Assembly (NCBI GenBank): GCA_020344415.1
Contig: CP070825.1
Coordinates: forward strand, 1,534,591 to 1,598,590
DNA from: Candidatus Aminicenantota bacterium
GTDB taxonomy: Bacteria; Acidobacteriota; Aminicenantia; Aminicenantales; Aminicenantaceae
DNA: 64,000 bases
Direction of reading: 5' to 3'
Position 1 is the first letter of the stretch. Every line of letters begins with the position of its first letter. Position numbers and translations under genes: made by a program. This document shows positions 51,513 through 64,000 of this stretch, in pieces. The notes under the pieces are model-generated. The model did no database searches. It was not told the DNA's origin and saw only the letters and a program-made list of their open reading frames with translations.

Positions 51513-52550
51513 ATGACACAATACTCAGATTTCAGGAGCGATACGGTTACCCGACCCACTGAAAATATGAGAAAGGCCATGGCTGCGGCAGAGGTAGGAG
51601 ATGATGTGCTTGGTGACGATCCCACTGTCCAGAAACTCGAGTCTATAGCCGCAGATATGATAGGTAAGGAAGCTGCCGTATACGTTCCCTCTGGCACAAT
51701 GGCAAATTCTATCGCTATAAAATGCTGGACAAATGAGCTTGACGAAGTCATCGTGGAAGAACGGGCTCATCTCTACAACATGGAATCCACCCATATGACA
51801 TTTATTGCAAGAGTTACACCTCGTCCTCTCTCTTCAAACCGCGGAGCCATGAATCCTGAAGAAGTGGAGAGAAATATCAGAAAACCTTCTGTCCACATAC
51901 CTCGAACCTCTCTTATTTGCATTGAGAATACTCATAATAACTGGAGTGGGGCTGTTGTTCCCATGGAGAATTTAAAAGCAATAAGGGAAATTGCTGATAG
52001 GCATGATGTCAAGGTTCACTTTGACGGTGCTCGTGTGTTCAATGCCTGCCATGCTACTGGTATCCCTGTAAAGGAATATGGCAAGATTGGTGACTCATTA
52101 ATGTTTTGCCTATCCAAGGGACTTTCTGCTCCGGTGGGTTCTGTATTGACCGGCCCGAAGGATTTTGTTGATTATGCGCGCCGGATAAGAAAAGCTCTAG
52201 GCGGAGGGATGAGACAGGTTGGGGTTCTTGCTGCACCTGGAATAGTCGCGCTTACGGAAATGGTGGATAGATTAAAAGAAGATCACATCAGGGCAAAGAA
52301 GTTAGCCTTGACCATTCAAGATTTACCTGGAATTGATCTCAATCCAGATCACATTGATACAAATATCGTTATCTTCGGGTTCAAGCACCCTGAAATTTCT
52401 ATCCCAGACTTTTTGGAAAAGCTGAAGGAACGTGGAATCTTAGCCTTGGCTACCACAGGCGAAAGGATCCGTTTTATCACTCACAAAGATATCGATGATA
52501 AAAATCTTGAGAAAGCCATCTCTGGTTTTCAAGAGATATTATCTCGATAG
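51513..52550 (+). CDS. ltaE: Low-specificity L-threonine aldolase
   Basis: A 345-residue PLP enzyme that cleaves threonine or allo-threonine to glycine and acetaldehyde. Signatures: DFRSDTVTRPTENM at the start, GDDVLGDDPTVQKLE, VHFDGARVFNA, and the PLP lysine in FCLSKGLSAPVGSVL. The ATG follows AGGAGGAGAG. It is monocistronic by position, on the opposite strand to both neighbours. Confidence 0.95.
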   Translation: MTQYSDFRSDTVTRPTENMRKAMAAAEVGDDVLGDDPTVQKLESIAADMIGKEAAVYVPSGTMANSIAIKCWTNELDEVIVEERAHLYNMESTHMTFIARVTPRPLSSNRGAMNPEEVERNIRKPSVHIPRTSLICIENTHNNWSGAVVPMENLKAIREIADRHDVKVHFDGARVFNACHATGIPVKEYGKIGDSLMFCLSKGLSAPVGSVLTGPKDFVDYARRIRKALGGGMRQVGVLAAPGIVALTEMVDRLKEDHIRAKKLALTIQDLPGIDLNPDHIDTNIVIFGFKHPEISIPDFLEKLKERGILALATTGERIRFITHKDIDDKNLEKAISGFQEILSR

Positions 52551-52627: not shown

Positions 52628-54643
52628 TTATTTAGCGGATTCGACAGAAGGAGCTGGCTTTTTCTCTGCTCCGAAGATAGCCATTTCTACAAGCTCCACA
52701 ATATCCCAGATCTTTAGCTTTTCCTCCAAGCTTTTGTCCTTTATTGCGTCATCGAACATGGTAACGCAGAAAGGGCATGCAGTAGCGATCCACTCCGGGT
52801 CTGCGGTAAGTGTGTCTTCCAGACGATGAATGTTAATCCTTTTACCGATTTTTTCATCCATCCACATCCAGCCCCCTCCGGCCCCGCAACAGAGGGCGTC
52901 GATTCTGGAGTGTTTCATTTCTCTAATATCTAGAGAAGGTATGGACTTGAGCACTTTCCTTGGTGGTTCGTAAATTCCGCTGTACCGTCCGAGGTAACAG
53001 GGATCATGGTAAGCGATCCTTTTAGGAATGGAATGCTCTAGCGTTAGGCGTCCATTCCGGATATTTTCCTGCAGGAATACTGCGCTGTGGATAACCGTGC
53101 AGTTGAAGCCGAGCTGCGGATATTCGTTTTTGAAGGTGTTATAACAATGGGGACAGGTGGTAAGAATTCTTTTTATTTTAAAACGGTTAAAAGTCTCGAT
53201 ATTAGTCTGGGCAAGGATCTGGTACAGATATTCGTTGCCCACGCGTCTAGCTGGGTCGCCGCAGCAACCTTCTTCCATTCCCAGGATAGCAAATTTAGTC
53301 CCGAGATGTTTGAGGATTCTTGCCATAGCGATGGCGACTTTCTTGTTTCGGTCATCGTATGAGCGGATACAACCTACAAAAAACAGGTAATCAATTTCTT
53401 TATCCTCGATCTCTGACAAAATAGGGACGTCTAGCTCACTTATCCAGTCTGCTCGGGTATTGAATCCTAAACCCCAGGGATTAGAGTTTGTTTCCAGACC
53501 TTTGAACGCCTGGGTGAGTTCTTCCGGAAATTTGCTTTCCATCAGAACTTGATAGCGTCTCATATCTATAATCTTATCGACATGTTCGATGAAGACAGGA
53601 CAGTGCTCCATACAAGAACGACATGTTGTGCAGGTCCAGAGAGCATCTTCTTCTATGGTACTGCCAACGAGAGATGGGACTTCCTCAACTTCTTTTTTCT
53701 TGGCTTTAGCTTCGAGTATTTGAGCTCCCCTTGTATGCAAATGTTCTTTCAGGTCAGTGATGACTTTCTTTGGGGATAAAGGCTTTTCGGTCAAGTGGGC
53801 AGGACAATGATCCTGGCACCTTCCGCATCGGGTACAGGCATCCAAGTCCATGAGTTGTTTCCAGGTAAACTCTTCGATTTTAGCTACTCCAAAGCTCTCT
53901 GCCTCTTCATCCTCCAGGTCCATATGGGAGAGAACCCCCTTAGGTTCCAGTGAGCGATGTATCATATTCATGGAAGAGCTGATTATGTGGAAGAGTTTAG
54001 AGTAGGGGATATAGGCAATAGTAGCGAGAACGAGAAAGAGATGAATGCGGAATACAACCATCGCAAGAACGCTCTTTGTATGACCAGCTAATCCTGTTAG
54101 ATTGAAAAAGGCGGCTAACGCTTGTCCTGCAGGTGCCCATGCGTGGCTATCCTTGCCGATTACAGATAGTCTCAAGCCTTCAAGCGTAAATCCGGTCAAA
54201 AGGATAAGGATGAAAAGAGCAAGGGAGATAAAGTCATCTGCCTTGTTGTCCAGCCTGGAAGGGCGGGATATATACCGGCGGTACATCGCCAATAATATAA
54301 AGGCTACAGCAGCTAATCCGATGGTATCGAGGCCGACGGAAACGAGCCGTGCTAACAAAACCGACAAAGTAAAAGTGAGCTGGGTTAGAATAATAATTAT
54401 AAGTGGGACCAGGAAGCCTAAGAAAATAAACAGATGTATAGTGCCAGGATAGGGGTCCTTGAGAATCCTCCTGTGAATTATTCCCTCCACCAGGAAGGAT
54501 TTTATCCTCGCCCACATATTGCTTGATCGGTTTTCCTCTTTTCCTATGCTCCATAGTCGAGCGCGTCTGTATATTCCCCAGGAGAAGATTGCGAACGCGA
54601 GCAGGATGAAGAATATGTCGAATGCTTTAATCATGTCATACAA
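52628..54643 (-). CDS. NarI/HdrD fusion iron-sulfur protein (DUF224-type quinone oxidoreductase)
   Basis: A 671-residue membrane protein. The N-terminal 230 residues have about six helices of the NarI (haem b, quinone) type. Two [4Fe-4S] motifs follow (CTRCGRCQDHCP and CTTCRSCMEHCP), then two CCG domains (CCGDPARR and CCGAGGGWMW, each with a trailing CPxC). Related DUF224 proteins carry electrons between EtfAB and menaquinone or act as HdrD-like disulfide reductases. It ends the redox operon and would provide its cytoplasmic-side redox module. Confidence 0.88.
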   Translation of the reverse strand: MYDMIKAFDIFFILLAFAIFSWGIYRRARLWSIGKEENRSSNMWARIKSFLVEGIIHRRILKDPYPGTIHLFIFLGFLVPLIIIILTQLTFTLSVLLARLVSVGLDTIGLAAVAFILLAMYRRYISRPSRLDNKADDFISLALFILILLTGFTLEGLRLSVIGKDSHAWAPAGQALAAFFNLTGLAGHTKSVLAMVVFRIHLFLVLATIAYIPYSKLFHIISSSMNMIHRSLEPKGVLSHMDLEDEEAESFGVAKIEEFTWKQLMDLDACTRCGRCQDHCPAHLTEKPLSPKKVITDLKEHLHTRGAQILEAKAKKKEVEEVPSLVGSTIEEDALWTCTTCRSCMEHCPVFIEHVDKIIDMRRYQVLMESKFPEELTQAFKGLETNSNPWGLGFNTRADWISELDVPILSEIEDKEIDYLFFVGCIRSYDDRNKKVAIAMARILKHLGTKFAILGMEEGCCGDPARRVGNEYLYQILAQTNIETFNRFKIKRILTTCPHCYNTFKNEYPQLGFNCTVIHSAVFLQENIRNGRLTLEHSIPKRIAYHDPCYLGRYSGIYEPPRKVLKSIPSLDIREMKHSRIDALCCGAGGGWMWMDEKIGKRINIHRLEDTLTADPEWIATACPFCVTMFDDAIKDKSLEEKLKIWDIVELVEMAIFGAEKKPAPSVESAK

Positions 54644-54675
54644 ATCCCATTCAAATCATGCATTGATCATTTATA

Positions 54676-55266
54676 TTACCAGGTTTTCCCTGGTGCCAGC
54701 ATAACATCGTGACAATTGAGACATTTTTGGTTTTTCGGAGGCCCTACGAATTCTCTGCGGTGACATTCGACACATTCTGAGACCGACGGACGATTTGTCC
54801 CATTCGTCATATACTCATGTCCTGAAGACCGATGACATCCCACACAATCCAGATCCTCTTGATGGTGAAACCGGTGATTGAATTTTATGACCTTTTTTTT
54901 GACGTCATATCCCAAATTGAGCACATCTTTATGACAATCCAGGCATCTCTGAGAAGTCAGTTTATCATCTGCAAGATATTCAGGAGGCACGAGCTGGTCA
55001 CGTGCGTGTCTTATGAAATTCCACTCTTTAGGGAGGATCCTGTTCCCAGGGGAATGGCATTGAAAACAGGTGGTTTGTCCAGCCGGATGCCCCTTTGAGT
55101 TTTTCCACATCTCTACTATCTCAGGATGGCATTGTCCACAGATGCGCTCATTCGTTACGGAATAGCGTATGAGATAGGCGCCAGTGCTTCCGCCTCCGAT
55201 CAAGACAACAAGTATGAGAGTGCCGAGAAGCATCCAAGCCTTTTTTTTGTATTTAGGAGAAGACAT
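54676..55266 (-). CDS. Multihaem cytochrome c, six haem sites
   Basis: A 196-residue protein with an N-terminal signal or anchor helix (about 10-30) and six CxxCH motifs: CGQCH, CFQCH, CLDCH, CVGCH, CVECH and CLNCH. The layout resembles NapC/NirT or NrfH-like small cytochromes, with more haems than usual. It would sit on the periplasmic face and relay electrons within the module. Spacing to neighbours is short (6 bases after the propeller gene). Confidence 0.9.
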   Translation of the reverse strand: MSSPKYKKKAWMLLGTLILVVLIGGGSTGAYLIRYSVTNERICGQCHPEIVEMWKNSKGHPAGQTTCFQCHSPGNRILPKEWNFIRHARDQLVPPEYLADDKLTSQRCLDCHKDVLNLGYDVKKKVIKFNHRFHHQEDLDCVGCHRSSGHEYMTNGTNRPSVSECVECHRREFVGPPKNQKCLNCHDVMLAPGKTW

Positions 55267-55272
55267 TTTTCT

Positions 55273-56583
55273 TTATTTCATATCAATTCTAAGCATGTAT
55301 ATTTCAGGCGTTTGCTTGCCTTGCGGAGGGCCAACGAGCAGGATTCTATTTCCGTCATGGCTCATAATCTTTGGTGCCCAGAAGGCTGGAATACGAGGAA
55401 AATCCATCGGGATTAAGCCTTTGAGATAACCTGGAGTTTTCTCATCAAAGGCCACTGCTTCTTGGCCCGTATGAAGGTCAAGTATCATTCCTGTATATAT
55501 ATGTTTAAACAGTATAAACTGGCCATTCCCTGAGAGATCGAAAAGCTCTACCCTGGCTGCTACTCTGGATTCTTGAAATTCTAATCCTGTTCCATCGCTA
55601 TTTATGGAATATGTTCCTATTCCTTGTTTCTTGCTTCCGTTATAGAAGAAAACAATCTTTTTTCCATCATAGCTGATATCAGCCAGAGAGAACCAGCGAT
55701 CATGAAAATCGGTTATTTTTTTTATTTCTAGGTCTTCCCAATCGGTAACATAAAGGTCGTAATCAATCTTTTCTGAAGATGACTGTGCGCCAAAGACAAT
55801 CTTTTGACCATTTCCGCTCATGCAAAATGCCCAGCCTCCCCCAGTGAGAGGGCGGCGTGGGAATGAGGACCATTCCCATTCTTTTCCATTGAATTCTGGA
55901 GCGAGAGTAGTTCTCTTTTGTCTGCTTTTGGCATCTATAAGGACGATGCCACTTGGGTTGCCATATCTGCGTGGTCCCAAATGTCCCTTCAATGCACATG
56001 CAATGCGGCTGCCATCGCCACTCACTGCATAATTGGATAGCCTTTCCCAATCTTTGCCAGTAAACTCGAATGATCTCAGATCTCTTTCTGCTAATGCATC
56101 GATTGGAAAATTGATGAGCCAGAAATCAGACCCATCGTTTTTGATGACGGCCAAGTAATGATCAAGAATATGAAAGGGCTCGCCCACGCTCAATGAAAAC
56201 ACAGCCACTTGACCATTCCCGCTTAGAACAGGCGGCTTTGAGCCGATATAGAGAAATGCATTCTCATATGGAGCCAAGGCTTTCCTCTTTCCATCACGGA
56301 AGAGCTCTGTCTCTTTCCCGTTTTCAAGATTCATTATCCTTATTGCCTTTGGCGGTTCTTCTCCATCCTTGATCTCTATTGTATAGAGCATCCAGCGGCC
56401 GTTGCTGCTCAGGCATGGATAATGCGCGATATTATTTCCAGAAAAGGTTAGCCTTTTAATCTCTCCGCGGAGCTGCTTGAGTTCATTCATATTAATCTGA
56501 GCATTAGCAGTAATGAATGATGAGAGCATCCAGAAAAGACTCACAGCGGCAGTGATTTGTATGTATTTCTTGATCGTTATCAT
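55273..56583 (-). CDS. Periplasmic TolB-like (PD40) beta-propeller protein
   Basis: A 436-residue secreted protein with repeated PD40/WD40-like blades, e.g. YPCLSSNGRWMLYTIEI, PVLSGNGQVAVFSL, YAVSGDGSRIACAL, FCMSGNGQKIVFGA and DISYDGKKIVFFYN. I set ATG 56583 (MITIKKYIQ) because GGAGG lies 9 bases before; the TTG at 56592 would be too close to it. Signal peptide about 4-28. Propellers are not standard members of Psr, Qrc or ACIII complexes, so its role in this operon is unexplained. Confidence 0.82.
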   Translation of the reverse strand: MITIKKYIQITAAVSLFWMLSSFITANAQINMNELKQLRGEIKRLTFSGNNIAHYPCLSSNGRWMLYTIEIKDGEEPPKAIRIMNLENGKETELFRDGKRKALAPYENAFLYIGSKPPVLSGNGQVAVFSLSVGEPFHILDHYLAVIKNDGSDFWLINFPIDALAERDLRSFEFTGKDWERLSNYAVSGDGSRIACALKGHLGPRRYGNPSGIVLIDAKSRQKRTTLAPEFNGKEWEWSSFPRRPLTGGGWAFCMSGNGQKIVFGAQSSSEKIDYDLYVTDWEDLEIKKITDFHDRWFSLADISYDGKKIVFFYNGSKKQGIGTYSINSDGTGLEFQESRVAARVELFDLSGNGQFILFKHIYTGMILDLHTGQEAVAFDEKTPGYLKGLIPMDFPRIPAFWAPKIMSHDGNRILLVGPPQGKQTPEIYMLRIDMK

Positions 56584-56610
56584 TTTTCTCAAGCCTCCAT
56601 AATCTCAGAG

Positions 56611-58887
56611 TTATGTTTTCTCTATACGAACTACTGTATCTTTTAATCCTAGGCCCATGCTGATGGGATCTGTTCGTGGTTCAATAATTTCATTGGGATT
56701 CACGCCGTTCCCTTTCTTTTCCCACCAGAGGAGATTTGTATCTTTGTCCTTGCTCTTGAAACGCTTAGCTTTGGCAATATTTCCCACTGCTTTATGACCA
56801 AGACCCTCTGCTAAAGCAACAGAATCTGGGTGAATCCGGTGGGTTGTGAGCACCCGGGTGATTAGGCTCCCCACTGGTGATATCACACGGACTCTTTCCC
56901 CATTCTTGATTCCAAGCCTGACAGCTGACTCTTTATTTATCCATAAGTGGTTTTCATGCAGTATCTCTCGTGCCCATTTACTGTTGGCAGTCCCTCTGGT
57001 TATGAGATTGGATTTGAATGGTGTGAGAATGAATTCATTCTCATTTTTCTTTTTGTGTAAGGCTACAGGTTGATACACAGGCAAGGGGAGATGGCCATCC
57101 CGCTTCAAGGTATTAGAATATATTTCGATTTTTTCATTTGCACGGGAAAGCCTTTTGTTGGAACTATATATGTAGAAACCATTTTTCTTTAGAGCTTTAA
57201 GGCCTCCCTGCTTTAGAAGTAAAGGAGACGAAGAAGCTGCTTTCGCCGCATAATCTTCAGTGTCTTTAAAAGGGAGGCTAGCTAGGATTTTCCCGCCAAG
57301 TCTATGAGCTATTTCGAGACAAAAGTTCCCAATCTCTTTAGCTTCACCTCTGGGTTTGAAAGAAGAATCAAGGAGCTTGTTTACATCAAAGAGGGTCGAT
57401 CTGAGGACTTCAGCATCACTTAAAAGAGAGATAACAGGCTGTCTGAGACTGAGTATCGATTCCATATCCAAGGATGGAACCTTCTTTATTCCCCACCCTT
57501 CCAGAAAAGTAGCAGCTGGAAGAATCACATCAGCCATCATAGCGGTTTCAGTAAAGTGAGTATCCATTACCGCTAGAAAAGGGACAATTTTTTCATCTTT
57601 TAACAAACGCAAGGTTGTTTGACAGTCTGGATCTTCGTAGATCGGATTAGAGAGATAGGCGAAATAGGTATCAACACGAGAATTTGTTTTTGTAAGATCA
57701 AAGATTCCTTTAATTACTTTACTTGATTTTTTTAGAGTAGGTTGAGAGGGAGCCGTTTCTTCTGGAAAACGGGGATAGAAAATTCCGCCTTCCTTCTCGA
57801 GATTTCCGACGAGACAATTCAATAGGGCGATGCATCTTGCATTTTGGCTTCCATTCTCATGTTCGCTTGCCCCTCCTCCAATCATGGCCAAAGAGGGTTT
57901 CTGTGTTGCAAACTCCACTGCCAGGCGTTCAATTTCTGCGGCATTTATACCGCTCTCCTTTTCTGCAGCTTCTGGAGTGTACTTCGAGAGATGTGGTGTT
58001 AACATGGTGAGAGGATAGTTGGTCGTCCTGTCCCAGAAATCTTTATCTGCAAGCCCATTTTTTATGATCACGTTGGCTATGGCTAAGGCAACGATACCAT
58101 CAGTCCCAGATTTGATCGGATACCAGGCCTCGCTCTTTGCCGCAGTTTCAGACATCCGAACATCAAAGGTGAAGAGCCTCGCTCCTTTCTCCACTTGAGC
58201 CATAACAAGGCGGCGGGCTATTCCAATGAAATGATCGTGATTTGCATAAGGATTGGAGCCGAAATTTAAGATAGTCCGACTTCTTCCAACGTCTTCAATG
58301 AAAGACTCCGACCTCATCATGGAAGTGAGGGCTTTCGCTCGGTTGAGATTCTTTATAGCAGCTCTGTCGATGATATTTGTTGACCCAACTGCAGAAATAA
58401 ATTTATTAAATAAAGGTTCATCTTTCCCCTTATCAAAAACAAGCTCGTTTGTTCTTCCGCTCTTCATTATCTCTTTGAAGCGTTTGCTCAATATCAGATA
58501 CGCTTCATCCCAAGTAATCTTGGTCCATTGGCCACTACCTCTTGAACCGATCCTCTTCATGGGCTGCAGCAGTCTTTCTGGATCATTGACAAGATTTATT
58601 GCGGCAATGCCTTTCGCACATATCCCTCCCTGGTTGTTAGGATGGAGTGGATTTCCAAGAAGCTGGACAAGGCGTTCGCCATTCAAGTAGGCAATGATGC
58701 CGCAGCCTGCTGGGCACTGCTCACATGTGGTGGGGATAGCGCGAAGGCGCTTGAGAGATGTTCGAGACACGCCAGCAATTTCCTGCGCAGCTTTTTTTTG
58801 AAATGCGTCGAAGCCTGCTGCTGTACCTGCAACCAAGAAGAATCCACTCTTCATGAATTTTCGTCTGGAAATCATTTTTTTTATCAT
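56611..58887 (-). CDS. Molybdopterin oxidoreductase-family protein, Tat-exported, Mo ligand apparently absent
   Basis: A 758-residue DMSO-reductase superfamily protein. A Tat signal (SRRKFMKSGFF) starts it, then a [4Fe-4S] site: C55, C58, C62, C90 (CEQCPAGC). The MopB body contains ILNFGSNPYANHDHF and the C-terminal molydopterin-dinucleotide domain (NSKWAREILHENHLWINKE). At the place where I expect Cys, Sec or Ser to bind Mo (GSTNIIDRAAIKN), residue 179 is Lys. QrcB and ActB likewise lack Mo, so this may be a structural electron-transfer subunit. It lies between the NrfD and propeller genes. Confidence 0.85.
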   Translation of the reverse strand: MIKKMISRRKFMKSGFFLVAGTAAGFDAFQKKAAQEIAGVSRTSLKRLRAIPTTCEQCPAGCGIIAYLNGERLVQLLGNPLHPNNQGGICAKGIAAINLVNDPERLLQPMKRIGSRGSGQWTKITWDEAYLILSKRFKEIMKSGRTNELVFDKGKDEPLFNKFISAVGSTNIIDRAAIKNLNRAKALTSMMRSESFIEDVGRSRTILNFGSNPYANHDHFIGIARRLVMAQVEKGARLFTFDVRMSETAAKSEAWYPIKSGTDGIVALAIANVIIKNGLADKDFWDRTTNYPLTMLTPHLSKYTPEAAEKESGINAAEIERLAVEFATQKPSLAMIGGGASEHENGSQNARCIALLNCLVGNLEKEGGIFYPRFPEETAPSQPTLKKSSKVIKGIFDLTKTNSRVDTYFAYLSNPIYEDPDCQTTLRLLKDEKIVPFLAVMDTHFTETAMMADVILPAATFLEGWGIKKVPSLDMESILSLRQPVISLLSDAEVLRSTLFDVNKLLDSSFKPRGEAKEIGNFCLEIAHRLGGKILASLPFKDTEDYAAKAASSSPLLLKQGGLKALKKNGFYIYSSNKRLSRANEKIEIYSNTLKRDGHLPLPVYQPVALHKKKNENEFILTPFKSNLITRGTANSKWAREILHENHLWINKESAVRLGIKNGERVRVISPVGSLITRVLTTHRIHPDSVALAEGLGHKAVGNIAKAKRFKSKDKDTNLLWWEKKGNGVNPNEIIEPRTDPISMGLGLKDTVVRIEKT

Positions 58888-58900
58888 ATCTAAAAGCCCT

Positions 58901-59797
58901 CTATAACAGTGGGACGAATTCTCCAGCTACCACAACGACGTATCGCATATAAAAAATACCAACGACCACAAGGATTGAAGCAATTATGATTGTGGGCAAT
59001 TTCCTGAATCGAGGCACAACCAAGAGAATAAAGGGCACTATCTTTCCCAGCAGGTTTTCAATAATGAGAAACATGAAACTGAATTTTCCACCCAGGATCA
59101 GGTGTGCCGCTGCTTGAGCATCCGAATGGGATATGGAAAGAACTATAAGATCACTGCCTACGAGAAAAAGGTCAAATACGATCATCCATGCCAGCAGTTT
59201 ACCAAGACTCGAGATTAGCTCTCTATTAACTTTTTTTTCCTTGGAAAAGAAACGGTCCTTAATTGTGCATACAAGGATCATCAGAGCTATACCTGAAACA
59301 ATGGCTGAGGCGAGGAAGAGAATAGGCATTATGGCCGTATTCCAGAGTGCCCTTGCTTTGCCAAAAGCCAGGATGAATCCAGTATACCCATGAACCGATA
59401 TAGCAAGGGGGATCCCGATAAGTCCAAAGATTCGAGTGCGCCTCATATTCTCCTTAAACATGTAATATCCATAGATGATGCAGTTTATCGGGTAAAGAAC
59501 AAGCAAGAATGAACCCCATGTGATGGGAGAAGACATATTGAGATAGACAAAAAGATGCCAGGCACGATAGGGCATTCCGATATGAATAAGGAGGAATAGG
59601 GGAGCTATGATGAGAACTGCGGTTGCCAGCACAATTCCTGTTTTGCCGAGGGGTTTGTACTGAGCCATCCCGAAACCATAGGCTAATGTAGACAGGATAA
59701 AAGACCCTGCGCTCAAGCCCGTAAGATAAAAGTATATGGCGATATTAAGGCCAAAAGCCTCTTGTTGAAAGATGTTGTAGAGAATCTGGCTATCCAC
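58901..59797 (-). CDS. NrfD/PsrC-family quinone-interacting membrane subunit
   Basis: A 298-residue protein with about eight membrane helices. It is assigned from its membrane profile, from features such as YFYLTGLSAGSFILS, and from position beside FeS and MopB genes. NrfD subunits bind quinol and connect to the ferredoxin subunit. The start is GTG (MDSQILYNIFQ) after AAGGGG. Confidence 0.88.
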   Translation of the reverse strand: MDSQILYNIFQQEAFGLNIAIYFYLTGLSAGSFILSTLAYGFGMAQYKPLGKTGIVLATAVLIIAPLFLLIHIGMPYRAWHLFVYLNMSSPITWGSFLLVLYPINCIIYGYYMFKENMRRTRIFGLIGIPLAISVHGYTGFILAFGKARALWNTAIMPILFLASAIVSGIALMILVCTIKDRFFSKEKKVNRELISSLGKLLAWMIVFDLFLVGSDLIVLSISHSDAQAAAHLILGGKFSFMFLIIENLLGKIVPFILLVVPRFRKLPTIIIASILVVVGIFYMRYVVVVAGEFVPLL

Positions 59798-59886
59798 AAT
59801 ACCCCTTTACAGTTCGGCCTTTTCCCTGGAACCAATAATTTTTAACCCTAGTGTCAAAATATTCATTTTAATCTCTGCAATCCAAT

Positions 59887-60480
59887 TCATTCATTCTCCT
59901 CTTGTTTTGCCTCAACTGCCAAAATCTCAAGACCGATATAATAAGCTTGGGGGCTTGTACCGATTTCGGGCTTAATAACCTGCACTGCATTTTTAGCCAT
60001 GGCTTTTGAAATATCACTTTCAGGATCATTCAGATCGCCGAATTTGATGGCTCCAGTGGGGCAGGCGATCACGCAAGCAGGCTTGAGATTGGCGTCTATC
60101 CGGTGGTGACACCAATAGCATTTCTCAGCGATTTTTTTTGTGGGATTGATGTATCTTACACCGTAGGGACATGAGGCCATGCAGTAGCGACAACCTATGC
60201 ACCTGTGGGGATCGATGTAGACAATTCCATCTGGCCGCTTGATACCCGCGTTAACCGGACAAACCGTAACACAGATGGGCTTTTCACAGTTGTTGCACAC
60301 TACGGGCAAATAATATTCCTTTGCATTCGGATAATTTCCTTTCTCAATCTTTTTAACCCAGCTTCTCCAGACCCCCAGCGGCACATTGTTTTCACTCTTA
60401 CAGGCCACAGCACAAGTATTGCAACCTATGCACTTCCTTAAGTCGAACAGCATGGCCAATCGCTTTTTATCTTTTCTCAT
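59887..60480 (-). CDS. Four-cluster ferredoxin subunit (DmsB/PsrB family)
   Basis: A 197-residue protein with 16 cysteines in four groups: CIGCNTCAVAC, CNNCEKPICVTVC, CIGCRYCMASC and CYWCH with CVIACP. This makes four [4Fe-4S] clusters. It has no signal peptide, so export by riding with a Tat-bearing partner such as the MopB protein, as in Psr and Dms complexes, is likely. It passes electrons between NrfD-type quinol sites and the MopB subunit. Confidence 0.93.
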   Translation of the reverse strand: MRKDKKRLAMLFDLRKCIGCNTCAVACKSENNVPLGVWRSWVKKIEKGNYPNAKEYYLPVVCNNCEKPICVTVCPVNAGIKRPDGIVYIDPHRCIGCRYCMASCPYGVRYINPTKKIAEKCYWCHHRIDANLKPACVIACPTGAIKFGDLNDPESDISKAMAKNAVQVIKPEIGTSPQAYYIGLEILAVEAKQEENE

Positions 60481-60491
60481 CGTTTTTGGTT

Positions 60492-61385
60492 TTATTTTTT
60501 ACTTTCCTCGCCTTCCTCTTCTTGTCCTGTCTTTGGAGGCTCCTTTTCCTTTATTTTCATGCTATCCCACCAAGTCTTTAGCCCCTCCACTATTCCCTTT
60601 CTAGATTTATACCCTACAAAAACGACTGCCCCAATAAGGAAGAGGACAACCAAGCCTCCACCTGTGTAATTGAGCCACAGCCATCTCTGTGAATCGAGGT
60701 GTGTTGGTCCCATTACGGTGTTACCTTTTGAACGAACATCATGGCATCGAGAACAGAATTCTTTGTAGGCACGTTTGGCCCCATGAGCAGAATCGCCATA
60801 GTGACAATTGATGCATACTTTCATATCAAATCTTTCTCCGAGATCCCCTTTGCGGTGTCCGGATATTTTTCCTAGAGAAGTACCTTTCAAGATTCCTCTT
60901 ACCATGACTTCGGGATGGCATACACCTACACCACAGGTGTTTCCCACATTTTCCTCGTGCACAGAAGACAATGGATTGTCGTGGGGAAGGATGTGGTGTT
61001 TGGTATGGCAGTGGTAGCATAAGGGGAGTTCTTTGTTTTTACTGGGAACGGGGAAGGTTAAATGGATATTTTTCTGGTATTCCTCTGCTTCTTCAGGATG
61101 ACAGCGGGCGCAATCTGCGTCTATGTAACCCTCGCTGAAATGAATATAGGGATTGGCGTTTGTGTGGCAATCTACACAGGTTATTTTACTATTTCGGTGG
61201 ATATCTTGAGACCATTCCTCTGGATTCACGAAGATGGAGCGTGCTATGCCTTCCTTTGTAACCTGGGAGATGCCTGGTTTTCCATGGCAAGAAAGGCAGT
61301 CTTGGTCGGTGAACCTAGATTGTTGAGCAAATGAGTAATTAAAGAGGAAGATGAGGAGGACGAATATACATCTTTTTGAATACAT
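60492..61385 (-). CDS. Membrane-anchored multihaem cytochrome c
   Basis: A 297-residue protein with a signal peptide (RCIFVLLIFLFNYSFAQ), six CxxCH sites (CLSCH, CVDCH, CARCH, CYHCH, CINCH, CSRCH), and a seventh CGVGVCH in which four residues separate the Cys pair. A C-terminal helix (about 245-268) anchors it, followed by an acidic cytoplasmic tail. It leads the seven-gene redox operon. QrcA and ActA of related complexes are also multihaem. Confidence 0.9.
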   Translation of the reverse strand: MYSKRCIFVLLIFLFNYSFAQQSRFTDQDCLSCHGKPGISQVTKEGIARSIFVNPEEWSQDIHRNSKITCVDCHTNANPYIHFSEGYIDADCARCHPEEAEEYQKNIHLTFPVPSKNKELPLCYHCHTKHHILPHDNPLSSVHEENVGNTCGVGVCHPEVMVRGILKGTSLGKISGHRKGDLGERFDMKVCINCHYGDSAHGAKRAYKEFCSRCHDVRSKGNTVMGPTHLDSQRWLWLNYTGGGLVVLFLIGAVVFVGYKSRKGIVEGLKTWWDSMKIKEKEPPKTGQEEEGEESKK

Positions 61386-61601: not shown

Positions 61602-62429
61602 TTAAAAAGGTATGGCGATGCCCCAGATGAATTTATAGAATTCTTTCTGGTTGCCCATTCGACTGCGCGTAGTATCCTTCCAGAGGGTTCCCCCAAGAGA
61701 AAGTTCGATCCATTCTAAAAGCCTTATCCGTAAGATAAGGTCTCCCCAGAAAGCCTGCCCAAGGGAAAAGAGCTCTTCAGTCTGAAAGAACATTTGAAGA
61801 TTCAAACTCAGGGGGTCTATCGGACGCAAACCGACTCTTATTCCATACTCTTGTTTCAGTTTGTTTCCTGATTGATCGAGATGTCCTCTCTGGTTTGTGT
61901 GATGGAAAAACCATGTGAAAGGTTCTATATAAAAATTGTTTCCTTCAAAGGGAATTCCAATGCCGACATAGTTCCTGTTGGTGAAAAAAGGCTTTTTCTT
62001 CTCTGGATCCAGGCTCTGATAGTCAGAATCATGGTTACTATCGTGCCCCACAATTAATACAAAGTTTTTTAATAATAGACATCGAAAAGAGAAATGCCAG
62101 TCAAATTTTGTCCTTTTGTGGCCGTCATCATGTGTGATGAGTTGGGCGAGGATCGAGGTGTTTTCAGTAAGAAAGACAAGATTTTGGAATCCAAAATTAA
62201 ATCTATCTTCTGGTCCGCTGAGGTCGTTATAACTGGGAAATGTGGAAGGGAGTTGGAGCTGAGCGAAAAGCTCTCCGTGAAGATAGAGCTTTTTCTCCCT
62301 GAAGAGCGGTTTTTTTTCTATGCCAGGACGATAGATGAAGATCTCGTAAGCATAAGATAGCTGTGGGATAAAAAAGCAGAAAATCAATAAAGATAGAGAA
62401 GCTTTAAGAAAGAACTTCTTAAAATTCAT
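61602..62429 (-). CDS. Predicted outer-membrane protein
   Basis: A 275-residue protein with a signal peptide (KKFFLKASLSLLIFCFFIPQL then SYAYE). I set ATG 62429 (MNFKKFF) so that the signal peptide starts the protein; the longer frame to 62525 overlaps the TonB receptor gene. The remainder is rich in aromatic amphipathic strands ending FIWGIAIPF. Probably a small beta-barrel. It follows the TonB receptor with an 11-base overlap, so the pair may be functionally linked. Confidence 0.7.
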   Translation of the reverse strand: MNFKKFFLKASLSLLIFCFFIPQLSYAYEIFIYRPGIEKKPLFREKKLYLHGELFAQLQLPSTFPSYNDLSGPEDRFNFGFQNLVFLTENTSILAQLITHDDGHKRTKFDWHFSFRCLLLKNFVLIVGHDSNHDSDYQSLDPEKKKPFFTNRNYVGIGIPFEGNNFYIEPFTWFFHHTNQRGHLDQSGNKLKQEYGIRVGLRPIDPLSLNLQMFFQTEELFSLGQAFWGDLILRIRLLEWIELSLGGTLWKDTTRSRMGNQKEFYKFIWGIAIPF

Positions 62430-64000
62430 AGGATAATCCCAGGCGAAAAACTCTCGGAGATTGAATCTCTGTGGCGAAACGAAGAGGATATTCAGGCCCT
62501 GTCCATTCGTTCTCTTCTGTGGCAAGGCCCCTGTTCAGGATGTTGAAACCATCCAGGATGATCCTCAATTTTGCCTTTCCGAGGTCTACGCTTCTTTCCA
62601 ATCTTATGTCCACTGTTCTGTTATATTCATATCTCGAGACGCCGCGAGCATGCGCCTGGATAAAGAATGGCCCTTGGTTCATCCCTCTAACAATGATTTT
62701 TCTGGAAAAAGGTTGTCCATCATAGTATTTGATAACACATCCGACTCTAATATTAAAAGGTGCCAAATAGTTGAAGCCAGCTCTTCCAGTATACGCTCTA
62801 TCAAAACGCGTTCTGCCCTTGGCGTTGATGAGGGTATTCGGATTATCATAAAGGCTCCCAATCACTCCGTCGTCGTTTTCCCATTCTGTGTTGCCAGGGC
62901 TTGTTTTTCCCACAGCAGAGGTAGCTGTGAAAGAAAAGAAAAACGAGAATCCAGAACTGTATTTCTTGATGACAGTAATATCGAAACCGTGATATCTGGA
63001 TCTTCTTTTTCCTGGCTCATGGTTGGTGAGAATAAAAAAGTCCTGCCCCAGTGTTTCTTCCTTCTGATTATAGGCAATGAAGCTAAGGTCGTCGTTGGTA
63101 TTGGCAACTCTGTCATCTCCGATGTCGAAAATTTCTAATGGATTGTAAGCAGAAAGGGGGACTCCCGTGTTGAAAGTTTCAACCAGGTTTCTGTACTCTC
63201 TATAAAATCCTCCCACAGATAAGTACCAGTTAGAGCCAAAATAGTGAACCAAAGAGATCGTATATTCATCCGAGTATGGTCTTTTCAAGTCGGCATCTAT
63301 TGTGGAAAAAAAGGGACCTTCTCGCCTGAGAAGCCTTCCTGCCTCCCCCTCTTGGTACTGCCCGTCTTCATTTTCATCGTTCCAAGAATACGCCAGCCCT
63401 CCGAGAGCGTTGGGATTCCCATACGTGAGGTAGACAAGAGGAAGAGTGAAGTAGTAGCGAGCCGCAGATACCTTCAGAGCCAATGATTTTGATCTGGTTA
63501 AGGGCAGAACGAACCCGATGCGAGGGGAAATGTTTAGCCAATTAATCTTTCCTTTTTCTCTTGAGAAACCGAAATCTTCTTCTTTGAAAGAGGAGCTGGG
63601 CTTCTGAGGGGTCCACCCCAGACTGGCGGCAAGGTTGAATCCAAGGTAAAAAGAGATAAAGTTGGAAAAAGTTAAGCTATCCTGGGCGAAAAGATTCACA
63701 TGGAGAGCCCGTTCACCGTGATCGACAGGAGTATTGTATTTAATGATTTCTAGAGGATTACTTTCAAAATAGCGGAGATGCAGATTGTCTAAGATTTCCT
63801 TATGAGAAGAAGAAAAGCAGTGTTGAATTTTAAGGCCGTATTGAAACCTGTGCCATGCTTTAAAGAAGCTTCTAGCTAGAGAATCTCCCCTTATGAGAAG
63901 GGTGAGAGAGTTCCGTTTATCTCTATATGCAAGGGGAGCCGCGCCAGAAGGAATGTTCTGAAGAATCTCACTGCCATGCTGTTCGTTAAAGCCATCTTGG
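62419..64000 (-). CDS. TonB-dependent receptor, C-terminal part (truncated at the window edge)
   Basis: The open frame runs from the stop at 62419 to the window end with no start, so at least 527 residues of a larger receptor are present. Typical barrel features include NLFAQDSLTFSNFISFYLGF (a TonB barrel strand signature), PRIGFVLPLT, KRPYSDEYTISL, RSRYHGFDIT and a terminal LSYEF. A start at GTG 63699 would cut through conserved barrel. The plug and signal lie beyond the window. The receptor class seems to be the carboxypeptidase-regulatory-domain type common in Acidobacteriota; the ligand is unknown. Confidence 0.85.
   Translation of the reverse strand, partial: QDGFNEQHGSEILQNIPSGAAPLAYRDKRNSLTLLIRGDSLARSFFKAWHRFQYGLKIQHCFSSSHKEILDNLHLRYFESNPLEIIKYNTPVDHGERALHVNLFAQDSLTFSNFISFYLGFNLAASLGWTPQKPSSSFKEEDFGFSREKGKINWLNISPRIGFVLPLTRSKSLALKVSAARYYFTLPLVYLTYGNPNALGGLAYSWNDENEDGQYQEGEAGRLLRREGPFFSTIDADLKRPYSDEYTISLVHYFGSNWYLSVGGFYREYRNLVETFNTGVPLSAYNPLEIFDIGDDRVANTNDDLSFIAYNQKEETLGQDFFILTNHEPGKRRSRYHGFDITVIKKYSSGFSFFFSFTATSAVGKTSPGNTEWENDDGVIGSLYDNPNTLINAKGRTRFDRAYTGRAGFNYLAPFNIRVGCVIKYYDGQPFSRKIIVRGMNQGPFFIQAHARGVSRYEYNRTVDIRLERSVDLGKAKLRIILDGFNILNRGLATEENEWTGPEYPLRFATEIQSPRVFRLGLSYEF

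Follow-up and report, generated by a model that had tools for sequence, protein, structure and literature searches.

A seven-gene operon of Candidatus Aminicenantes that combines an EMO/EtfD-type gene with cytochrome, NrfD and MopB genes and replaces the resident EMO

The stretch of DNA analysed here (the window, 64,000 nucleotides of a single-contig 4.43 Mb genome of a Candidatus Aminicenantota bacterium, CP070825.1) includes seven open reading frames (ORFs), at 52628-61385, that lie head to tail on the minus strand and are one tight operon. The intergenic gaps, in transcription order, are 11, 89, 13, 18, 6 and 32 bp, and a check of the ORF list found no internal stops. From its sequence, the last gene is best read as an ETF:(methyl)menaquinone oxidoreductase (EMO, or EtfD) of beta-oxidation, where ETF is electron transfer flavoprotein. 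The block has replaced the EMO that is resident at the same locus in relatives, and we consider it likely that it serves as an electron bridge from ETF to cytochromes. Gene classes were assigned using Pfam and NCBIfam profiles together with motif counts. The genes, and two sites within the fourth, are as follows.

60492..61385, minus strand: gene 1, CytA, exported heptahaem cytochrome c with a C-terminal anchor (Pfam Cytochrom_c3_2 / Cytochrome_C7, haem motifs, hydropathy)
59887..60480, minus strand: gene 2, FeS4, ferredoxin-like subunit of the NrfC/PsrB/DsrO type with cysteines for four [4Fe-4S] clusters (Pfam/NCBIfam)
58901..59797, minus strand: gene 3, NrfD, membrane subunit of the NrfD/PsrC family, 298 aa, GTG start (Pfam NrfD, 166 bits)
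56611..58887, minus strand: gene 4, MopB, Tat-exported molybdopterin-oxidoreductase-like subunit (Pfam/NCBIfam, alignment)
58849..58869, minus strand: Tat motif SRRKFMK of MopB, residues 7-13 (sequence)
58351..58353, minus strand: codon for MopB Lys179, where PsrA/PhsA (2vpw) have the Mo-ligand cysteine (alignment)
55273..56592, minus strand: gene 5, PD40, exported or anchored beta-propeller with a TolB/WD40-like fold, TTG start (sequence, predicted structure)
54676..55266, minus strand: gene 6, CytB6, hexahaem cytochrome c with an N-terminal anchor, weakly NapC/NrfH-like (profiles, haem motifs, hydropathy)
52628..54643, minus strand: gene 7, EMO/EtfD type, with a NarI-like cytochrome b domain, two [4Fe-4S] sites and two CCG domains (profiles, alignment)

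The sequence-only reading of the window had named these seven gene classes in this order and at these positions, and all are correct according to the ORFs, profiles and motif counts. Two of the descriptions are refined here, MopB to a form that lacks the Mo-ligand cysteine and the first cytochrome to one with seven haem motifs. However, to describe gene 7 as an HdrD-like extra part understates it, as this gene is the anchor of the locus.

The best PDB match for gene 7 is 9ojn (E 2e-149), and the match extends over the cytochrome b domain, the ferredoxin domain and the two CCG domains. Chains of methanogen HdrB matched at only about 5e-11, and the DsrK, HmcF and TmcB families of NCBIfam at only 44-76 bits. 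The identification of 9ojn as EtfD is drawn from its length and architecture and not from a stated annotation. A NarI-like cytochrome b, two [4Fe-4S] sites and two CCG domains in one chain is the EMO/EtfD architecture; the domain order is that of EtfD, which in mycobacterial beta-oxidation partners EtfBA at the membrane (PMC8593149), and the cofactor class is that of the Syntrophus EMO (PMC8805022). Four annotated plasmid homologues from three phyla (Paenibacillus, Niallia, Azoarcus and Haloterrigena; 31-37% identity over ~95% of the query) are all found beside or near etfBA, two of them in beta-oxidation clusters with acyl-CoA dehydrogenase genes. It is because the 9ojn match has the EtfD architecture and the plasmid homologues adjoin etfBA that we read gene 7 as an EMO. 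Across the class, EMO was found in 117 of 142 genomes, nearly always as one copy, and ETF in 133 of 142. The window genome has no EMO besides gene 7. In ETF-encoding genomes the module gene takes the place of the resident one as a single copy.

In the cytochrome b domain, H70, H201 and H219 are invariant across all EMOs compared. The EMOs of the module have a complete first CCG motif (C425, C460-C461, C497 and C500) and, in the EMO alignment, the module-specific residues His57, His279, His347 and His446. Resident EMOs have Gly500 in place of the module cysteine, and the plasmid homologues linked to EtfAB have lost most of the cysteines of the first CCG motif.

The same seven genes were found in the same order at 11 fully covered Candidatus Aminicenantes loci (genomes, loci and families are given our own labels, G, L and f, respectively). 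Ten are in family f1 (the window genome, G032, G002, G010, G018, G005, G030, G024, G012 and G060) and one, G109 (L112), is in family f12 of the same class. Nine further loci (in G022, G035, G001, G011, G020, G033, G006, G023 and G029) carry sets truncated by the contig end that are consistent with this order, and tblastn searches with all seven parts recovered the identical order at every wider locus. When the propeller was used as query against 60 relatives, it was present in 15 family-f1 genomes beyond the window's own (47-69% identity), with two or three extra weak matches that are not orthologues, and MopB (49-68% identity) was found in the same genomes wherever the contig continues. Among genomes whose contigs permit the check, none had an otherwise complete block that lacked the propeller, the hexahaem cytochrome or the seventh gene. 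The three parts that the sequence-only reading had regarded as additions are therefore conserved with the other four. Such a fixed order in many genomes rules out a chance array, and the loci and trees together show co-inheritance of the kind expected of one functional unit.

Outside the class, 396 genomes sampled from the phylum yielded one related FeS-NrfD pair, in G386 (L130), where the set (L130:5780-10542) includes a weaker MopB and a heptahaem cytochrome beside FAD_binding_2 and FeS proteins, with neither propeller nor EMO. Within the class, G099 carries FeS-NrfD-MopB with a 12-haem cytochrome (L113:633-5420) and has no propeller or EMO adjacent. These two sets, in which the added parts are missing, seem to be related to the core and are possible ancestral forms. 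With one exception, named records in which the propeller occurs are Candidatus Aminicenantes metagenome-assembled genomes (MAGs). The exception (L061, JADFWA010000401.1) is titled Proteobacteria, has a propeller 69% identical to that in the window and is probably a mislabelled Aminicenantes MAG. In G109, a reductive dehalogenase-like gene in divergent orientation (L112:985-2334) lies beside the seven-gene block.

In genomes without the module, both in family f1 and in other families, EMO is found at one conserved locus (L166, L168, L169, L170 and L171). The ancestral order is a PASTA-type gene, threonine aldolase, EMO, in some cases a small protein, a TonB-like receptor and a lipoamide dehydrogenase-like gene (lpd), which is followed in several genomes by nuoABCD. 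In genomes with the module (L024, L026, L027, L030, L038 and L117) the same neighbours flank the seven genes, the module EMO occupies the resident position and no EMO of the resident type is present. In the window the flanking genes, which are locus markers outside the module, are as follows.

51513..52550, plus strand: threonine-aldolase-type gene, which adjoins EMO with and without the module
61602..62525, minus strand: small protein at the position of cluster cl17, at the opposite end of the ancestral EMO locus
62419-63699: TonB-receptor-like gene after the small flank protein, on the same side

A maximum-likelihood tree of EMOs separates the 17 module EMOs from the 18 non-module EMOs across one branch (support 87/90), which was recovered in 100% of 200 bootstrap trees. 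The EMO of G109 nests within the f1 module clade, far from the resident EMOs of its own family, f12, and in a tree of MopB, NrfD and FeS combined G109 also falls within family f1, as sister to G012 (support 98/95). With G109 inside the f1 module clade and the f12 resident EMOs distant, the seven-gene block has probably moved horizontally across families.

One module EMO, that of G005 (L030:4717-6720), is a hybrid. Over residues 1-405 it shares 57-69% identity with module EMOs and at most 40% with resident EMOs, while residues 406-671 share 71% identity with the resident EMO of G004 and 46-49% with module EMOs; the switch point is at about residue 350-400, so that roughly the first 370 residues are of the module type. 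This is consistent with a leftover of recombination between an incoming and a resident EMO. It suggests that the cytoplasmic, electron-accepting half can be exchanged for that of an ordinary EMO and that the membrane half belongs to the module. The EMO in the window and the resident EMOs of its family share only 15-32% identity over residues 1-200 and 36-68% over most of the second half. From the shared locus, the single module clade spanning two families and the G005 hybrid, we conclude that the block replaced the resident EMO.

The remaining genes form an NrfD-type core with two cytochromes and a propeller. The cysteines of the FS0 site of MopB (C55, C58, C62 and C90) are invariant in all module MopBs, and the twin arginine is conserved in all relatives. 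However, at the position where the cysteine of PsrA/PhsA (2vpw) binds Mo, the window has Lys179, no module member has Cys, and there is no Cys, Ser or Asp that module members share, whereas a Mo-type MopB paralogue in G004 keeps the Cys. As the Mo-ligand cysteine has been lost, the module MopB is probably not a molybdoenzyme, like QrcB, and assignment as a catalytic molybdoenzyme was rejected. The best curated match is nonetheless PhsA (301 bits, cut-off 694) and the best PDB match PsrA.

NrfD has about 8 long helices, as judged by hydropathy and from a low-confidence model (mean pLDDT 57) that was used for helix counting only. In the literature, the PsrC/NrfD/TtrC group has a short NrfD, and the QrcD/DsrP/ActC/HmcC group has 10 helices (PMC6303296). 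Ser90 of NrfD aligns with Ser164 of ActC (6f0k_C) and Arg285, in helix 8, with Arg395; both are conserved in the NrfD of the module, and the ActC residues have been implicated in quinone binding and in the path of protons (PMC8076601). A plasmid search for NrfD relatives recovered only distant molybdoenzyme anchors (26-29% identity). The FeS4 subunit has no signal peptide of its own. The tyrosine of its CRYC motif, Tyr99, is invariant and is at the type of position occupied by Tyr113 of QrcC, which is essential (PMC13059093).

CytA has seven haem motifs, six CXXCH and one C-X4-CH, and a transmembrane segment at about residues 240-258. The C-X4-CH motif is the fifth (CGVGVCH in this genome) and is CXXCH in aligned relatives; either a variant type of haem site or a short insertion could explain the difference. 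The predicted structure of the propeller (pLDDT 82.8) is all-beta, and a signal or anchor helix is evident in the sequence. No Pfam family was found for it. Its Foldseek matches are to generic propellers only (TolB, WD40, oligogalacturonate lyase and S9 peptidase; TM-score <=0.66), so no enzyme can be named for this protein, and a catalytic role was rejected.

Each half of the block resembles known machinery, but membership of the Qrc, Psr/Phs, Ttr, Dsr, Hmc or Tmc systems proper was rejected, as all of the NCBIfam cut-offs were missed. Known EMO/EtfD proteins (the Syntrophus EMO and Mycobacterium Rv0338c) stand alone or beside etf and beta-oxidation genes. Unlike these, the module EMO shares an operon with six cytochrome, NrfD and MopB-type genes, and it also differs in its complete first CCG motif and in H57, H279, H347 and H446. 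QrcABCD is similar in having a multihaem cytochrome, a MopB without a Mo site, a four-cluster FeS protein, an NrfD-family subunit and quinone-site residues. However, QrcD has 10 helices and the module NrfD (298 aa) about 8, QrcB is described as carrying no cofactor (PMC13059093) and the module MopB has the invariant FS0 cysteines, and the second cytochrome (the two have 7 and 6 haems), the propeller and the EMO are additional. The scores against the NCBIfam QrcA, QrcB, QrcC and QrcD models, relative to their cut-offs, were 19.9/180, 185/440, 126/400 and 58/570 bits, and the module MopB, in having lost the Mo ligand, is Qrc-like by convergence.

The PsrABC, PhsABC, TtrABC and NrfCD systems share with the module an 8-helix NrfD, a TtrB/NrfC-like FeS protein and a MopB to which PhsA/PsrA are nearest. 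They lack its cytochromes, propeller and EMO, and the module lacks the Cys ligand of the catalytic MopB of PsrABC and PhsABC (PhsA, 301/694 bits). Alternative complex III (ACIII; ActABCDEF) likewise combines a cytochrome, an inactive MopB, FeS clusters and NrfD subunits, and quinol-to-cytochrome chemistry has been proposed. However, ActB is a MopB-FeS fusion, ActC and ActF have 10 helices, ACIII also includes ActD and ActE, and neither EMO nor propeller is present in ACIII; the module has separate MopB and FeS genes and one short NrfD, which scored only 25 bits against ActC, with no second NrfD-type subunit in the block. The DsrMKJOP, Hmc and Tmc systems also cluster a cytochrome c, a DsrO-like FeS protein, NrfD, a NarI-like domain and a CCG protein, but gene 7, a NarI-CCG fusion, belongs to the EtfD branch, and MopB and the propeller are extra. 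Gene 7 missed the DsrK, HmcF and TmcB cut-offs (69.5/400, 44.5/750 and 76/735 bits), NrfD missed that of the DsrP/HmcC type (88/350 bits) and FeS4 missed that of DsrO narrowly (194.9/200 bits). The three-gene CbcSTU of Geobacter, compared by description, has a periplasmic multihaem cytochrome, a 4Fe-4S ferredoxin and an inner-membrane subunit; the table that describes it lists no MopB, propeller, second cytochrome or EMO (PMC10989804). The relationship to Qrc and ACIII that the sequence-only reading had proposed therefore holds at the level of function and not of family, because the NrfD is of the short, 8-helix kind and the family cut-offs tested (Qrc, Act, Dsr and Hmc) were missed.

In the mechanism that we favour, gene 7 would accept electrons at the cytoplasmic side from ETF, and hence from acyl-CoA dehydrogenases, and its CCG and [4Fe-4S] clusters and b haems would relay them to menaquinone. 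NrfD and the 4x[4Fe-4S] protein would exchange electrons with menaquinone at the outer face, and the electrons would then cross the MopB, retained either as a scaffold or as a wire with one cluster, and reach the two membrane-anchored multihaem cytochromes. The propeller may assist in assembly or docking of the periplasmic part. Together, the halves would amount to a redox loop fixed in one operon, and a proton path in NrfD would let the membrane potential push the electrons. In Syntrophus, an inner EMO and an outer formate dehydrogenase constitute a menaquinone redox loop driven by membrane potential (PMC8805022), and Qrc is an electrogenic NrfD machine (PMC13059093).

The most likely direction appears to be outward, from acyl-CoA to periplasmic or extracellular cytochromes. 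This is favoured because the genome is rich in multihaem cytochromes, with several clusters in which 9-19-haem cytochromes accompany Rieske and cytochrome b genes, because it has an MtrA/DmsE-like decahaem gene (165 bits, cut-off 192), because iron respiration is predicted for Aminicenantia, to which psr/phs and iron-reduction potential have been assigned in general (PMC12740246), and because there are only three Pfam Molybdopterin matches genome-wide, that of the module MopB included. Flow in the opposite direction, which we regard as unlikely, would start from periplasmic cytochromes that receive electrons from H2, formate or an extracellular partner; the electrons would pass by way of the MopB, FeS and NrfD proteins into menaquinone, and EMO would use menaquinol to reduce ETF and enoyl-CoA ('enoyl-CoA respiration'). 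Qrc, which is electrogenic, runs this way (PMC13059093), as does the Syntrophus EMO loop on crotonate (PMC8805022), and sequence leaves the direction unfixed. However, no donor enzyme is encoded in the operon, the Molybdopterin matches are few, and outward flow is suggested by the MtrA-like gene and by the abundance of large multihaem cytochromes.

The electron donor and the nature of MopB can also be read in other ways. The sequence-only reading had offered a link from periplasmic cytochromes and the quinone pool to cytoplasmic carriers of either the ETF or the thiol type, and of these the ETF branch fits gene 7. Were gene 7 instead to handle a thiol/disulfide carrier (DsrC trisulfide or similar), as in DsrMK, HmcEF and TmcBC, the block would be a Dsr/Hmc-like system with an added MopB. 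The classes of parts are shared (including the near-threshold DsrO match), the first CCG motif of the module EMOs is complete and the genome does encode DsrC. This reading is nevertheless very improbable: gene 7 is far closer to EtfD, it lies at the EMO locus in a genome otherwise without EMO, and the DsrC gene adjoins its own HmcF/TmcB/DsrK-like CCG protein and a small membrane protein elsewhere in the genome (L120:8020-10346). That CCG protein scored 255-312 bits against the families to which gene 7 scored 44-76. It is because DsrC has this partner that ETF is favoured, and DsrC was rejected as the main partner of gene 7. Only slightly better placed, and still improbable, is a MopB that works as a molybdo- or tungsten-dependent reductase of polysulfide, thiosulfate, arsenate or similar through a non-cysteine ligand, with EMO a mere operon neighbour. 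PhsA and PsrA are its nearest curated and PDB relatives and the FS0 cysteines are kept, but no potential Cys, Ser or Asp ligand is common to module members, the block has no gene for a TorD-type chaperone, and EMO moves and recombines with the block.

A stronger contender, though one to which we give somewhat less than even chances, is that the operon groups two machines for regulatory reasons only: a quinol:cytochrome c reductase and an EMO of the ordinary kind, with the quinone pool as their one point of contact. This would be compatible with the ETF-to-cytochrome bridge and is a rival only to a single complex. Each half does resemble stand-alone complexes (EMO; Qrc and Psr). Set against this, the replacement of EMO came with the whole cassette, and it is in the membrane half that the module EMO departs furthest from resident EMOs, which suggests adaptation to the partner. 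More tentatively, EMO and a Mo-less, Qrc-type NrfD machine might be physically joined in a respiratory supercomplex that places potential-driven electrons from beta-oxidation directly onto periplasmic or extracellular cytochromes; if so, fatty-acid oxidation would lead to extracellular electron transfer without H2 or formate.

Several observations weigh against the bridge from ETF to cytochromes. Both etfBA pairs in the genome, at 3.82 Mb and 2.17 Mb, are outside the seven-gene operon, and the pair at 2.17 Mb is accompanied by a FixC-like and an acyl-CoA dehydrogenase-like gene of its own, the other pair being alone. No fourth b-haem histidine common to all aligned EMOs was identified. The complete first CCG motif, missing in the ETF-linked plasmid homologues, may leave room for DsrC or a thiol as donor, electrons could flow inward, and faulty binning or assembly could account for the G005 hybrid.

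A central question in syntrophy is how the relatively high-potential electrons of acyl-CoA dehydrogenation are moved onto low-potential carriers. In the known solution, EMO is paired with a formate dehydrogenase or hydrogenase in the periplasm. In the present block, that outer half of the loop appears to be replaced by an NrfD/MopB machine that reduces cytochromes and is locked to EMO in one operon. If this is correct, widespread uncultured sediment bacteria gain a testable route from fatty-acid or amino-acid oxidation to cytochromes, and perhaps on to minerals or partner cells. The block also illustrates the recombination of respiratory modules, having displaced an ordinary EMO and crossed family lines. 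Each half is known. The fixed seven-gene combination, the behaviour as an EMO-replacement cassette, and the propeller and hexahaem cytochrome additions were absent from the curated families, the literature searched and the genomes scanned outside the class, in agreement with the sequence-only reading, which had not recognised the set and whose overall interpretation is supported. However, as the scan for the propeller used two peptide patterns and limited genome collections, a wider occurrence is possible.

Further redox genes were noted elsewhere in the genome. There is a second, partial copy of the DsrC arrangement (L118:8201-10229) with a DsrC fragment only, and both copies adjoin near-identical cysteine-desulfurase-like genes. 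Three similar clusters carry cytochrome b-like and 9-haem cytochrome genes (L192:7689-14714, L193:8371-15253 and L194:4996-8444); the Rieske gene is readable in the L192 and L193 clusters and masked in that of L194. Two of the three carry further 11-19-haem cytochromes, giving a repeated bc-type complex with multihaem partners. The strongest Molybdopterin match other than the module MopB (G000:C1:225353-226468; L189, L197) has an in-frame TAA and flavoprotein-like neighbours, and is perhaps a gene for a formate dehydrogenase or hydrogenase that is broken or was mis-sequenced. A four-gene set that, judged by eye, resembles a group-3b hydrogenase lies beside a cytochrome with 9-11 haem motifs (L196:2592-8437). 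Finally, the decahaem MtrA/DmsE-like cytochrome is in a row (L195:7450-11091) with a 622-aa protein that has no Pfam match and a pentahaem cytochrome. This row is a candidate porin-cytochrome conduit, in which the 622-aa protein is a possible outer-membrane barrel.

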